From a virus, in the IMG/VR virus record IMGVR_UViG_3300047469_000089, positions 1 to 31,449 of that record: a stretch of DNA of 31,449 nucleotides; one strand, given 5' to 3'. Below the pieces are notes generated by a model. The model made no database searches. It saw nothing but the letters and a program-made list of their open reading frames with translations, and was not told where the DNA came from. Made by a program: the position numbers and the translations under genes. Below are positions 1 through 31,272 of the stretch, one piece after another; position 1 is the first letter of the stretch, and every line of letters begins with the position of its first letter.

Positions 1-117
1 GGTCTCAATACTGGATACGATAACTCGGCTTAATCGCATAACTTGAACCGCCGTATACGGATCCGTACGTACGGTGGTGTGAGAGGACGGCGGCTGTGAA
101 GCCGCCTCCTACTCGAT
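1..117 (+). mobile_element. 3' end of a group II intron (domains V and VI)
   Basis: Only the 3' end of the intron lies in the window; any reverse-transcriptase ORF would be to the left. Domain V is at 47-78: a 9-bp lower stem (47-55 with 70-78), a two-base bulge CG at 68-69, a 4-bp upper stem and a GATC tetraloop. The catalytic triad is CGC at 49-51, with the expected central G50.U75 wobble. Domain VI is at 81-114: a GGCGGC/GCCGCC upper stem and a lower stem with one bulged A at 111, the predicted branch point, seven bases from the intron end. The RNA ends in CTCGAT at 117. Known of the family: these are self-splicing retroelements. The interrupted exon is not recognised. 118-201 holds no clear gene, only the leader of the holin gene. 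Confidence 0.88.
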
Positions 118-13515: not shown

Positions 13516-13835
13516 CCGCCGCTGCCCGTGCGCTCTATGAGTCTGACGGTTCCGCTGAACAGATGGCGATGTTCGGCTTCTCGCCAGAGGACTACGACGA
13601 AACCTTCGAAGTTTGGCCTGACAACTGGAAGGCCTTCCTTGTCATGGACTCGATGGGTACTCAGTGGCGCACGGGCGCGTGCGGCGCAACCGGCCTTGAT
13701 TACGGCGTTTTGCCAAACGTGATGAAGCTCGTCGGCATTCCGGCGAAGGATCGCCCAAGCGTGTTTCAGGACATCCGCGTAATGGAATCGGAAGCCATCG
13801 CGGTTATGGCCGAAGCCCGTGACAACAGCCCGTGA
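13132..13835 (+). CDS. tail assembly chaperone, -1 frameshift fusion (lambda gpGT analogue, DUF1799 extension)
   Basis: A predicted 234-residue fusion made by a -1 slip at 13506-13512. The first 127 residues are the short chaperone; the next 107 read LTAAARALYESDGSAEQMAM and continue into a DUF1799-like domain (FGFSPEDYDETFEVWPDNW). The extension has no good start of its own: its first in-frame ATG at 13554 lies inside the conserved domain start and lacks a ribosome-binding site. It ends at TGA 13833, just before the tape measure gene, exactly as gpT does in lambda-like phages. Confidence 0.85.
13506..13512 (+). promoter_or_regulatory. programmed -1 ribosomal frameshift site
   Basis: GGGAAAC fits the X-XXY-YYZ heptamer in the zero frame (ctG GGA AAC) and is followed at once by the TGA of the short chaperone. 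Downstream the -1 frame stays open for 107 codons with protein-like sequence. Lambda uses the closely similar GGGAAAG at the same place. Confidence 0.88.
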
Positions 13836-27515: not shown

Positions 27516-27530
27516 GTCTGGAGAAAAGTG

Positions 27531-28070
27531 ATGCCTGTCAATAAGCTACAACTTTTGCAGATTCTCCCGAACGCCGGCTATAGAGCCGGCGTCTTTGCAC
27601 CGCTCCTCAATACGGCGATGGGGCGGTTCCAAATCATCGGGACGGAGCGCGTTGCTGCATTCATCGCGCAGATCGGTCACGAGTCCGGTCAACTTCGCTA
27701 TGTTCGCGAAATCTGGGGGCCCACTCCGGCGCAGATCAGGTACGAGGGACGTACCGATTTAGGTAACACCTTAACCGGCGACGGCTTCAAGTACCGCGGG
27801 CGGGGGCTTATTCAAATCACGGGCCGTACCAACTATGCTGAATGCGGCGAAACGCTAGGCGTGGACCTAACTAGCCAGCCGGAGTTACTAGAGCAGCCGC
27901 AATACGCTTGCCTGTCAGCTGCATGGTTCTGGGCAAGTAAAGGGCTTAACACTTTGGCTGATGCAGGAAAGTTCGAAACGATCACCCGCCGGATAAATGG
28001 CGGGCTCAATGGGCAACAGGATCGGCTGAAGCTATGGGCGGAAGCTTCGGCCGTGCTAATGACGCGCTAA
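27531..28070 (+). CDS. endolysin, glycoside hydrolase family 19
   Basis: A 179-residue GH19 (chitinase-like) lysozyme that cleaves peptidoglycan glycan strands. Catalytic Glu candidates are Glu51 in the motif GHESG and Glu60 in YVREIW. The family signature YRGRGLIQITGRTNY lies near residues 85-99, and WFWASKGLN near 130-138. There is no signal peptide, so export depends on the holins at 202-875. ATG 27531 is preferred over GTG 27528 because GGAG is then eight bases upstream. It ends the rightward late block and converges with a leftward gene 18 bases away. Confidence 0.92.
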   Translation: MPVNKLQLLQILPNAGYRAGVFAPLLNTAMGRFQIIGTERVAAFIAQIGHESGQLRYVREIWGPTPAQIRYEGRTDLGNTLTGDGFKYRGRGLIQITGRTNYAECGETLGVDLTSQPELLEQPQYACLSAAWFWASKGLNTLADAGKFETITRRINGGLNGQQDRLKLWAEASAVLMTR

Positions 28071-28088: not shown

Positions 28089-28409
28089 CTAAGCGCTTTG
28101 TTTATATTTTACCTTCATCGTGACCGTTCCCTCAGCCCCCGCCTTCATCGAAATATTTACACCTTCTATCGGCGCTTTAAAGTTTAAGCCAGCTTCGTGA
28201 CTCATGGTGATTTCCATCTCATCTACACCTGAGTCTTTCCCCTCCCGGATTACCTTGGCGGCTGCTTCTGCCTGATTTTCGGGAGTTGCCACGGCACCAC
28301 CAAAAGCATCCAAGCCTTTGCGCATCAGCCAACCTACAGGGTTGAACATTGCAACCTGTTTTAGTGTATTTCGTAGCGTCGCGGGGTCTGTCAGATCGTA
28401 ATTTTTCAT
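28089..28409 (-). CDS. small conserved protein at the prophage right end, unknown
   Basis: A 106-residue soluble protein. The N-terminal half (MKNYDLTDPATLRNTLKQVA, then FNPVGWLMRKGLDAFG) is helical. The C-terminal half is beta-rich with alternating acidic and hydrophobic residues (DEMEITMSHEAGLNFKAPIE). The ATG at 28409 is chosen over an extension to 28502 because AGAGG lies eight bases before it, and the extension would cross a 33-bp dyad that is probably regulatory. It is transcribed toward the endolysin gene. I do not recognise a family. Confidence 0.62.
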   Translation of the reverse strand: MKNYDLTDPATLRNTLKQVAMFNPVGWLMRKGLDAFGGAVATPENQAEAAAKVIREGKDSGVDEMEITMSHEAGLNFKAPIEGVNISMKAGAEGTVTMKVKYKQSA

Positions 28410-28667: not shown

Positions 28668-28931
28668 TCAATGAGTTGCCGAGGACCTGGGTACTGGGAC
28701 GTGATCAAATTTTGAAATCTCTTTGATCCAGAAGCGACGATACTTAGTTTGGTCTGGCGATAGCGGTTTGTGATTTGACCAGGGATGCTCAGTTTTCAAG
28801 CTGGCGCGGTACACCTCCCACTCCTTCTCCTCGGCCACTTCCTTGGCCCTTTTCTCATCATCGAACCAGCCAAGTACGTAAACTTCGCCCTGATCCATAC
28901 CGTGCTCGATCAGTAGATAGATATCTTTCAT
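28668..28931 (-). CDS. small charged protein, unknown function
   Basis: An 87-residue, strongly charged soluble protein (MKDIYLLIEHGMDQGEVYVL, then GWFDDEKRAKEVAEEKEWEV). It is predicted alpha/beta with an aromatic-rich C-terminal half (QTKYRRFWIKEISKFDH). The ATG at 28931 is preferred over an upstream GTG because the family-like strand begins there, though only a weak GAG precedes it. It lies downstream of the SRAP gene in the same direction but after a hairpin, so it may or may not belong to the SOS cassette. I do not recognise a family. Confidence 0.58.
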   Translation of the reverse strand: MKDIYLLIEHGMDQGEVYVLGWFDDEKRAKEVAEEKEWEVYRASLKTEHPWSNHKPLSPDQTKYRRFWIKEISKFDHVPVPRSSATH

Positions 28932-28957
28932 AAGCTTGAACTCGCTACTACACGTTC

Positions 28958-28978
28958 TAAAATCCCCTGATGTTGGGG
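28958..28978 (-). terminator. weak leftward hairpin between SRAP and the next gene
   Basis: On the minus strand CCCC (28978-28975) and GGGG (28967-28964) with a seven-base loop lead into ATTTTA. The short stem suggests partial termination. The 145-bp gap around it holds no gene. Confidence 0.4.
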
Positions 28979-29075
28979 CATTGTTTTGACTATCGGCAGG
29001 CACTATCGGGTATTGAGTATTGTCGATGAACGGCGCGACGTCGATCTTGAGTCTGATCGCCTAGCCCATTGCCGA

Positions 29076-29768
29076 TCATCCTGCGTTATCGTTCAAAGGG
29101 GTGATGAGTTCCTGCCTCTGATTCCGCACGTTGCCCACCGCGTTGTCAACCTTGAACCACTCGAAGGCCTCAATAGGCTCTCCCTCGAGAAGCACCATTT
29201 GCTCGGCGCGTTCTTTCGGAGTGGCCGGGTCAAGCCATTCGCGAGCGAGTTCGGGCGACAGTGCCACCGGGCGGCGATCATGAATGTCCACCATACCTCC
29301 GGCGCTGTCGGCGGTGATGATGACAAAGCCGTCATGCTCGCCTGGCTCATGTTCGCCGATTGGATACTGGCCAATAGCAGCACAGAGGATCGGCGTCCGG
29401 TCGCGGTGGCGAATCAGGTAGGGTTGTTTCTTCGGACCGCCTTCATAAACCCACTCAAACCAGTTGTCGATCGCGATGATTGCTCGGTGCGGCCATATTG
29501 CTTTGAAGAATGGGCCATGGGCGATCTTTTCGACTCGAGCATTGATCGGCGCGGCGCGGTCTTTGGCCCAGTGCGGGCGCCAACCCCAACGAACCATGTC
29601 AGCGCGCAGGTATTCACCATCACGGTGAAATAGGGCGAGCTGAGTGGTCGGCGCGGCGTTATAGCGCTCGAAAGGCTCGTCACCGGCATAGTTGATCAGT
29701 GCGTTGGGGATGCTGAGCGCCGCGACGAAGTCATGAATGCCCCGGTACTGTGAAAGGCGTCCGCACAT
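29076..29768 (-). CDS. SRAP domain abasic-site crosslinking protein (YedK/HMCES family)
   Basis: A 230-residue SRAP protein. Cys2 in the N-terminal MCGR is the catalytic residue, exposed after removal of Met, that forms a thiazolidine link with abasic sites in single-stranded DNA. Other family motifs are NAAPTTQ near residues 37-43, RWGWRPHWAK near 60-69, INARVEK near 75-81, NWFEWV near 101-106, and the C-terminal VDIHDRRP near 160-167 with the active His. All look intact. GAGGG precedes the ATG. It lies 28 bases after a coiled-coil gene that follows a LexA box, so it is probably induced with the SOS response. The protein shields damaged DNA during replication. Confidence 0.92.
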   Translation of the reverse strand: MCGRLSQYRGIHDFVAALSIPNALINYAGDEPFERYNAAPTTQLALFHRDGEYLRADMVRWGWRPHWAKDRAAPINARVEKIAHGPFFKAIWPHRAIIAIDNWFEWVYEGGPKKQPYLIRHRDRTPILCAAIGQYPIGEHEPGEHDGFVIITADSAGGMVDIHDRRPVALSPELAREWLDPATPKERAEQMVLLEGEPIEAFEWFKVDNAVGNVRNQRQELITPLNDNAG

Positions 29769-29796
29769 GGCTAAACCCTCAATCTGAATACTGAGC

Positions 29797-30147
29797 TTAG
29801 ATGATCGTCTTTGAGTCAGGGGTCAGGCCATCCAGTAACCCGCGCAGCCGGTCAGCTTCCCGCTTGTAGCCTCTCGCTGCTATGTCGAGGTCGTACAACT
29901 CCTTGCGGACTTTTGCGAGCTTCCCGGATCGCTCCCGAAGATTGCTCATTGCTTCGTCACGCTGCGTGGAGGTCTCGTCGTACATTTTCACCAGGCCGAA
30001 GATGTTCTCCCGCGCGGTGCGCAGTTGCAGGGTCAGTTCCTGGACTTCGTTTTCCAGCATCAGTTTGTAATGGGTGATGGTTTCCAATTCGGTCGGGCAT
30101 CCAAGCCAGTCGCTGGTATCTTCGATGTCGAGGGGGTCCACGGTCAT
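29797..30147 (-). CDS. coiled-coil protein of the SOS cassette
   Basis: A 116-residue acidic, helical protein, first gene behind the LexA box. Residues about 24-105 are predicted coiled coil with regular heptads (YKLMLENEVQELTLQLRTAR; RERSGKLAKVRKELYDLDIA). The N-terminus (MTVDPLDIEDTSDWLGCPTE) is acidic and may be disordered. AAGG lies close before the ATG. It probably shares a transcript with the SRAP gene 28 bases downstream. I do not recognise a family; a partner or regulator of the SRAP protein is a reasonable inference from gene order. Confidence 0.65.
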   Translation of the reverse strand: MTVDPLDIEDTSDWLGCPTELETITHYKLMLENEVQELTLQLRTARENIFGLVKMYDETSTQRDEAMSNLRERSGKLAKVRKELYDLDIAARGYKREADRLRGLLDGLTPDSKTII

Positions 30148-30159
30148 GCCTTATTTGCA

Positions 30160-30175
30160 CTGTTCGGATATACAG
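30160..30175. promoter_or_regulatory. LexA (SOS) box
   Basis: CTGTTCGGATATACAG is a full CTG-N10-CAG match to the gammaproteobacterial LexA operator. It lies 12 bases upstream of the leftward coiled-coil/SRAP cassette, where bound LexA would block the promoter. Confidence 0.8.
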
Positions 30176-30240
30176 TAATCGAGGCGCAGGGGTCGGGCGA
30201 GGGTGAGGCGACGAGCTGTAGGATTTTTAGTGGTGTGCAG

Positions 30241-30263
30241 TCGGCAGGACGCCGGAGAAGGGT
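30241..30263 (+). repeat. 23-bp direct repeat, copy 1
   Basis: The sequence beginning TCGGCAGGACGCCGGAGAAG matches 22 of 23 bases with copy 2 at 31250-31272 in the same orientation. It contains the inverted repeat CGGC-AGGAC-GCCG. Confidence 0.75.
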
Positions 30264-30269
30264 GGACTA

Positions 30270-30285
30270 CTGTAGGAATATACAA
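30270..30285. promoter_or_regulatory. degenerate LexA-like box
   Basis: CTGTAGGAATATACAA matches CTGT-N8-ACAG except for the last base and shares the ATATACA half with the perfect box 110 bp away. It may be a weak second operator or a remnant. Confidence 0.3.
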
Positions 30286-30310
30286 CGCTAAGTTATTGAT
30301 TCTTATAGGG

Positions 30311-30363
30311 TGATGTGACGGTTTTTCAAGTGATAGAAAAGCTCCTATTTTCCTTTCACATCA
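30311..30363 (+). promoter_or_regulatory. structured leader with nested inverted repeats
   Basis: TGATGTGA (30311-30318) is complementary to TCACATCA (30356-30363), and inside it GAAAA (30336-30340) can pair with TTTTC (30348-30352). It lies in the otherwise gene-free stretch 30286-30421. It could be a paired operator or part of an untranslated RNA. Confidence 0.4.
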
Positions 30364-30421
30364 ATAGGTTACAGTCGGCTCCCGGTCACCTAGACATGGT
30401 GGGTAGGAGAAGCTGAAGGCT

Positions 30422-30568: not shown

Positions 30569-30664
30569 ATGAGCGTACTCATCGTTTCTCTTGTTGCTTT
30601 GGCGACTGCGTGGGGTCTGTGGAACGTCGTTAGCTGGATTTACGATAAAATCTGCGGCCAGTAA
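30569..30664 (+). CDS. 31-residue single-helix membrane microprotein
   Basis: A 31-residue ORF, MSVLIVSLVALATAWGLWNV then VSWIYDKICGQ, forming one clear transmembrane helix (residues 3-23) with a short polar C-terminus. AAAGG lies 9-13 bases before the ATG. A strong rightward terminator follows at 30713, giving a compact transcription unit with the 44-residue ORF. Membrane microproteins in prophages include toxins and regulators of envelope proteins; either is possible here. The strongly membrane-like composition in the single open frame supports a real gene. Confidence 0.5.
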   Translation: MSVLIVSLVALATAWGLWNVVSWIYDKICGQ

Positions 30665-30679
30665 ACGTAAGGCGTTGTA

Positions 30680-30695: not shown

Positions 30696-30712
30696 ATAAC
30701 TGCAAGAATTCG

Positions 30713-30738
30713 AAGGCCCCTTTTTGGGGCCTTTTTTT
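30713..30738 (+). terminator. strong rightward intrinsic terminator
   Basis: AAGGCCCC (30713-30720) and GGGGCCTT (30726-30733) with a TTTTT loop run into TTTTT. It closes the small rightward unit 30422-30664. Confidence 0.85.
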
Positions 30739-30980: not shown

Positions 30981-31190
30981 TCATTCGGGTGTCATCAGCA
31001 CCGCGAGCGTAAGCTTGATGAACTCCTCGTTCTTGTCGATGGTGTCCAAGGCTCCGCGCACGTTGTCTGCGACGTCAGCCGAGCCGCGGGCCTCGACCCA
31101 ATTGGAAAGCTCCAGGATGGCGGCCTCCAAGGCGAGTTGGTTTTCGTTGATCTTGTACAGCAGGGAGGGGAGTAAGTCTGAATGTGGCAT
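30981..31190 (-). CDS. small conserved phage protein near the attachment end, unknown
   Basis: A 69-residue acidic helical protein (MPHSDLLPSLLYKINENQLA), predicted as three helices. The ATG at 31190 is chosen because GAGGAA lies seven bases before it on the minus strand. It is the last gene before the tRNA and points away from it. Comparable short helical proteins are frequent at this end of Pseudomonas prophages, with no assigned role. It is not a recognisable excisionase: there is no winged-helix or basic DNA-binding signature. Confidence 0.6.
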   Translation of the reverse strand: MPHSDLLPSLLYKINENQLALEAAILELSNWVEARGSADVADNVRGALDTIDKNEEFIKLTLAVLMTPE

Positions 31191-31249
31191 CGCGATTCCT
31201 CGTTTTTGAGGACAGCGTAGCATCGCGTTACATGAAGGATATTTAACGA

Positions 31250-31272
31250 TCGGCAGGACGCCGGAGGAGGGT
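31250..31272 (+). repeat. 23-bp direct repeat, copy 2
   Basis: Second copy of the repeat at 30241-30263, differing at one base (GGAGGAG for GGAGAAG). It lies about 120 bp from the tRNA and 60 bases upstream of the leftward 69-residue gene. Confidence 0.75.

Follow-up and report, generated by a model that had tools for sequence, protein, structure and literature searches.

A probable LexA-controlled cassette with an exchangeable first gene and an optional SRAP gene in Pseudomonas prophages

The window analysed here is an IMG/VR-type virus record of 31,449 bases and covers the right-hand part of a lambdoid prophage of Pseudomonas. The record is a fragment (31.4 kb, without the early region), and the repressor of the same phage, thus, lies outside it. 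Its last genes point leftwards: a small gene (30981-31223) and then, behind a LexA box, a gene for a coiled-coil protein (hereafter CC) and a gene of the SRAP (YedK/HMCES) family. The box (CTGTATATCCGAACAG; 30160-30175, minus strand, as are all parts of the cassette) ends 12 nt before the CC start, with the spacer at 30148-30159. The open reading frame (ORF) of CC, 116 amino acids long with an ATG start, occupies 29797-30147, and the SRAP ORF, of 230 amino acids and also with an ATG start, 29076-29768. The gap of 28 nt between them (29769-29796) has an identical length in close relatives. Re-reading of the ORFs returned the coordinates of the first-pass annotation for the box, the 12-nt spacer, CC, the 28-nt gap and SRAP, and the perfect CTG-N10-CAG that it had placed 12 bases before a coiled-coil gene is indeed present at 30160-30175. 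The leftward SRAP end of the cassette faces an endolysin gene (27528-28070). Two further genes were considered as parts of the cassette and rejected: the gene at 28668-29003 has relatives in just three of the fetched loci, and that at 28089-28409 has relatives in none. Right at the beginning of the record (46-117, plus strand) we noted a match to the Rfam group II intron family (RF00029, 50 bits, above the gathering score).

A search of phage records revealed that the record end resembles a tRNA-Ser gene; ARAGORN found no complete tRNA in the window. We infer that the tRNA-Ser-like stretch is probably the attachment site. An integrase gene adjoins CC in phage PseuP_222, and a tRNA lies about 210-530 nt from CC in four other loci (L144, L150, L169 and L170). 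As part of the overall explanation that we favour, and with the same fair degree of probability, the cassette would sit at the right prophage edge, flanked by the lysis genes and the attachment site. The same region of the window holds a conserved non-coding element (30240-30403, minus strand; CCCACCATGTC..AGGTGACC ... CTATAAGAATCAATAACTTAGCGTTGTATATTCCTACAGTAGT ... CCGGCGTCCTGCCGACCG), which is common to many Pseudomonas prophages at a varying distance from CC. It contains a near-LexA site, which is a perfect CTG-N10-CAG in L174, L059, L047 and L244. A 23-nt direct repeat (30241-30263 and 31250-31272, 96% identical, about 1 kb apart) flanks the small gene at 30981-31223. A hydrophobic 31-aa ORF (MSVLIVSLVALATAWGLWNVVSWIYDKICGQ; 30570-30665, plus strand), for which we found no convincing relative among the fetched loci, is followed shortly by a terminator-like hairpin (30712-30734).

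The SRAP gene had been described as an intact YedK/HMCES gene, and this description stands. The protein matches Pfam PF02586 over its full length (residues 1-214; 154.3 bits against a cut-off of 27.1), as well as PHROG 1599, and YedK structures at E of about 1e-50. The active site of YedK consists of Cys2, Asn75, Glu105 and His160, with Cys2 being the residue that crosslinks abasic sites (PMC9436759). Alignment to YedK showed that all four residues are kept in the window's protein (Cys2, Asn76, Glu105 and His163), and they were invariant in 136 distinct relatives, except for one H163Q. In L121, L123 and L127 a 150-aa protein with Cys2 and an IHDRWP segment is found behind CC (two distinct CC loci); its SRAP match is marginal (E 0.006, below the Pfam cut-off), and it is possibly a shortened SRAP.

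CC is acidic (pI 4.8; family median 5.0). AlphaFold2 modelled it as one helix with high confidence (residues 20-108) and its N-terminus with low confidence, and the protein would probably form a coiled-coil dimer or oligomer. The most conserved part of the family alignment is a nearly invariant N-terminal motif, DPxxIEDTSDWLGxPTxLE. No real match to CC was found in Pfam, PHROGs, NCBIfam or the PDB sequences, and a profile of the family run against the PDB sequences returned generic coiled coils only. When 84,980 species were scanned, each represented by one genome, CC turned up in Pseudomonas only, although distant relatives elsewhere could escape the single short peptide pattern that served as query. 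Of 199 Pseudomonas genomes sampled, 43 have relatives by profile search (E <= 1e-10). By these sequence comparisons, CC is a conserved, LexA-boxed family of Pseudomonas prophages that is absent from the family libraries searched. Thus, the coiled-coil partner that the first-pass annotation called unknown now has a family, a LexA box and an N-terminal motif. The DWLGxPTxL part of the motif faintly resembles the FtsZ tail DYLDIPAFL, a likeness that a helix cap explains equally well; it makes division one candidate target of CC.

A bare CTG-N10-CAG occurs 13 times in the window, where 10.9±3.0 matches are expected, and at least 13 were seen in 29 of 100 shuffles; by itself, the pattern is at chance level in the window. 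We built an SOS matrix from six boxes of one related Pseudomonas chromosome, three of which precede recognisable genes (lexA, a yebG-like gene and an SplB-like radical-SAM gene). In a scan with this matrix the site at 30160-30175 ranked first in the window, and none of 40 shuffled windows reached its score. Furthermore, in viral and chromosomal loci alike, the box was found 12-16 nt before CC wherever upstream DNA is available, in 116 of 116 distinct loci (two extra rows with odd box offsets are truncated genes and stand outside the 116). As a background rate, CTGT-N9-CAG lies within 45 nt upstream of about 1.3% of all ATG and GTG codons in the CC loci. Because the box in the 116 loci might be shared by descent, we examined 20 divergent CC homologues found by protein profile only. 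All 20 have a box, which in most of them has a different and more palindromic core (for example, CTGTATGCACATACAG), suggesting that LexA control is very probably a property of the family. The SOS control of the cassette that had been proposed earlier is supported by this conservation and by the top matrix score, and we regard it as very likely. More than 100 related prophages keep the same LexA switch, with the first gene sometimes swapped and the second sometimes absent.

The phylogenetic footprint of the CC loci showed that conservation extends about 40 nt upstream of the box, giving an extended promoter of the form GCTCGTCGCC-N4-CCTCGCC-N~13-GCCTCGATTA-LexA box (30160-30217, minus strand). 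Alignment of the CC promoters with those of another operon revealed the extended element also before an unrelated gene for a 242-aa protein; it was absent before the host SOS boxes examined. Scanning of viral contigs with the pattern CTCGATTACTGT-N9-CAG, without protein guidance, returned 80 loci, in which the box precedes CC (56), the 242-aa gene (14), a UmuD-like gene (4), another coiled-coil gene (1) or unrelated genes (5). A pattern scan with the longer promoter gave zero matches, probably because its spacing was too strict. The 242-aa protein (phrog_19595), which has a C-terminal CxxC...CxxC and replaces CC before SRAP (for example, at L002:2249-2974), has no Pfam match; its fold was modelled with middling confidence and had no PDB match at E <= 0.001. 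The UmuD-like genes, which also have CTCGATTACTGT-boxes upstream, are preceded in L206, L237, L256 and L259 by a long near-palindrome of the type CTCGATTACTGTATGTGCATACAGTAATTCGAG. In L242 the ORF directly behind the same LexA box (minus strand, next to the promoter match at 13696-13719) encodes a different coiled-coil protein (MDTTPEASEWPDEFTREEMLEQQ...) and is perhaps a third kind of first gene.

CC is small, LexA-boxed and located outside the immunity region of the prophage, which recalls the antirepressors of the Gifsy phages (PMC3121763). By analogy with Tum, AntC, GfoA/GftA or PP3901, CC might act as an antirepressor or induction factor, produced upon SOS to inactivate the repressor and so induce the prophage. 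A Pseudomonas precedent exists in PP3901, a LexA-regulated gene of a P. putida prophage that is reportedly needed for induction of prophage genes by DNA damage (Abella 2007, as cited in PMC4595014). However, in searches for S24 and HTH domains that covered 50 records, an S24-domain protein, typically the CI repressor, was encoded in 37 of the 40 long CC-bearing records, usually in one frame with an HTH domain, whereas antirepressors of the Gifsy type pair with non-cleavable repressors that lack S24. With a self-cleaving repressor in 37 of 40 records, a separate antirepressor would not be required, though the argument is limited by the record holding PP3901, which also encodes an S24 protein, and the window's own repressor lies beyond the record. 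PP3901, which we located through published primers, proved to be a DUF1654 protein (phrog_2707). It gave no alignment with CC, and CC has no Pfam match above the cut-off. A gene of the PP3901 family is already present in 19 of the 40 CC-bearing records. These DUF1654 genes are LexA-boxed in all eight CC-bearing cases read (10 of the 10 loci read, L341-L350), which gives many of these prophages a second LexA-boxed unit apart from the CC cassette. Since the S24 and DUF1654 counts oppose an antirepressor role, yet the PP3901 record also has S24, we regard this role as disfavoured and rather unlikely, while keeping it under consideration.

The two genes had also been taken for a two-gene unit. The LexA-CC-SRAP arrangement indeed recurs in prophages, but an obligate unit is not supported, CC occurring about as often without SRAP as with it. 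Among distinct CC loci, the next gene is SRAP in 94, the short SRAP-like protein in 2 and neither in 94, and among distinct loci of the 242-aa gene 35 have SRAP and 10 lack it; part of the set was retrieved via SRAP, which inflates the share of CC loci that have it. Since the collections are also redundant, these counts are not population frequencies. In the promoter-led set, which involved no selection for SRAP, SRAP was absent in 37 of 56 CC loci. The dN/dS of CC was about 0.12 with SRAP and 0.13 without, as estimated from small samples (10 and 6 sequences, some with dS >1), suggesting similar purifying selection in both settings. In the CC loci that lack SRAP, a search for a conserved gene downstream of CC found none; the recurrent ORFs there look antisense to the convergent lysis genes. 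In the SRAP tree, most forks of which are weakly supported, the partner label changes 11 times by parsimony, and at least five changes are forced by supported branches. The window's SRAP is nested among 14 that belong to the 242-aa type (97% local support), its close relatives standing behind the unrelated 242-aa gene and the same promoter. Judged from the tree, partners have been exchanged repeatedly between SRAP and the first genes. The locus counts, the similar constraint and the label changes together argue for separable modules behind a common switch.

CC and SRAP could alternatively be obligate partners, with the coiled coil recruiting SRAP to forks or SSB, or holding SRAP-DNA crosslinks together. 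The pair is conserved, CC and SRAP lying 2-94 nt apart in most CC loci that have SRAP, and the 28-nt gap is exact in ten close relatives (the window, L006, L014, L021, L022, L033, L055, L058, L064 and L090). Yet CC stands alone, under similar constraint, in 94 distinct loci, and L093 has a lone CC about 89% identical to that of the window. SRAP, in turn, is found behind the unrelated 242-aa gene, and partner exchange is frequent. These observations make an obligate partnership improbable.

Starting from what was read in the sequences (the box and its conservation, the modularity and the integrity of SRAP), we favour, as reasonably probable, a LexA-repressed modular accessory ('moron') cassette that combines SRAP as a shield of abasic sites with CC as a separate SOS effector. 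LexA binding, induction, the chemistry of the window's SRAP and all action of CC are predicted steps. DNA damage would activate RecA, LexA would be cleaved and the cassette would be expressed. This expression would be independent of the phage repressor, and the cassette would, therefore, be on during the SOS window with or without excision of the prophage. SRAP would cover abasic sites in single-stranded DNA as a covalent crosslink through Cys2, and the crosslink would keep phage and host DNA from breaking during replication. CC would act as an SOS effector in its own right rather than as an obligate SRAP subunit, its dimer or oligomer probably presenting the N-terminal IEDTSDWLGxPTxLE segment to a partner protein; as the likeliest target we would guess a host protein that works in SOS, replication or division. 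In this modular design, a single extended LexA promoter would drive a first gene that can be exchanged (CC or the 242-aa protein) and, optionally, SRAP. Tentatively, CC may even be the first member of a new class of LexA-controlled phage effectors that occurs in Pseudomonas prophages only. It would use the N-terminal segment as a docking peptide and, during the SOS window, reprogram a process of the host, be it division, RecA or replication, while SRAP would be an additional shield for DNA. We prefer such a host-directed SOS effector over an antirepressor by elimination.

Two other explanations start from SRAP. The cassette may serve in counter-defence, SRAP shielding abasic sites that base-removing immune glycosylases make in phage DNA. 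The chemistry of SRAP is established and base-removing defences, such as Brig1, exist (PMC11078745). However, LexA control couples expression to damage of the lysogen and not to infection, and deletion of E. coli YedK left plaque counts of T4 with Brig1 unchanged (PMC11078745), a result that neither supports nor excludes a role of a phage-encoded copy; we give this explanation a slim chance. Slimmer still is the chance that SRAP is an autoproteolytic damage sensor and a switch for phage lysis, as proposed in 2013 on the basis of SOS neighbourhoods (PMC3765255), given that later biochemistry of YedK assigns Cys2 to crosslinking of abasic sites (PMC9436759) and that SRAP is optional in these prophages. 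Finally, the bare pattern is as frequent in the window as chance predicts, but the conserved position in 116 of 116 and 20 of 20 loci and the best SOS-matrix score in the window make it barely credible that this CTG-N10-CAG is accidental and that the genes lie outside SOS control.

The presence of SRAP in SOS and prophage settings is already known. The CC family, its LexA control and the exchangeable first gene were not found in the literature searched, which comprised open-licence papers only and makes such absence weak evidence of novelty. While the chemistry of SRAP is established, its role in bacteria and phages is poorly understood. A SRAP gene that is LexA-switched, optional and moved between unrelated first genes offers natural pairs with and without SRAP, in which its benefit to the phage can be tested. 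CC is widespread, LexA-boxed and without an assigned function, and so marks a definite gap in the picture of the SOS response in Pseudomonas lysogens.

Among known systems, Tum of phage 186, AntC of N15 and GfoA/GftA/GfhA of the Gifsy phages are, like CC, small LexA-controlled prophage ORFs outside the immunity region; this likeness is drawn from gene size, control and position, and, in contrast, most CC-bearing records encode S24 proteins. PP3901 (DUF1654) is likewise a small LexA-boxed Pseudomonas prophage gene, and its family co-occurs with CC in 19 of 40 records, but the sequences are unrelated and the DUF1654 gene of CC-bearing records lies near the S24 gene and not with CC. The second gene of the cassette agrees with the SRAP/YedK-HMCES family (PF02586; phage copies include SPbeta YoqW) in its full-length match, its Cys2, Asn, Glu and His residues and its SOS context. 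A1S_2014, the SRAP of the Acinetobacter baumannii prophage CP9, is among the genes induced by mitomycin C (PMC3978071). It is a prophage SRAP like that of the window and serves as a precedent for induction by DNA damage, but it adjoins umuC, and Acinetobacter lacks LexA. SRAP genes in SOS neighbourhoods and temperate phages were noted in 2013, when the sensor role was proposed, and the contexts described then were UmuDC, ImuAB-DnaE2, DinB, Ku-ligase and related repair genes (PMC3765255). Among the SRAP loci that we read upstream, a translesion polymerase neighbour was seen in L069 and L080, where a single LexA box separates SRAP from the divergently oriented umuD-umuC. The window's ORFs around SRAP include no translesion polymerase gene, and, unlike in the contexts of 2013, SRAP is here the second gene behind CC or the 242-aa protein, under a shared extended LexA promoter and without a polymerase.
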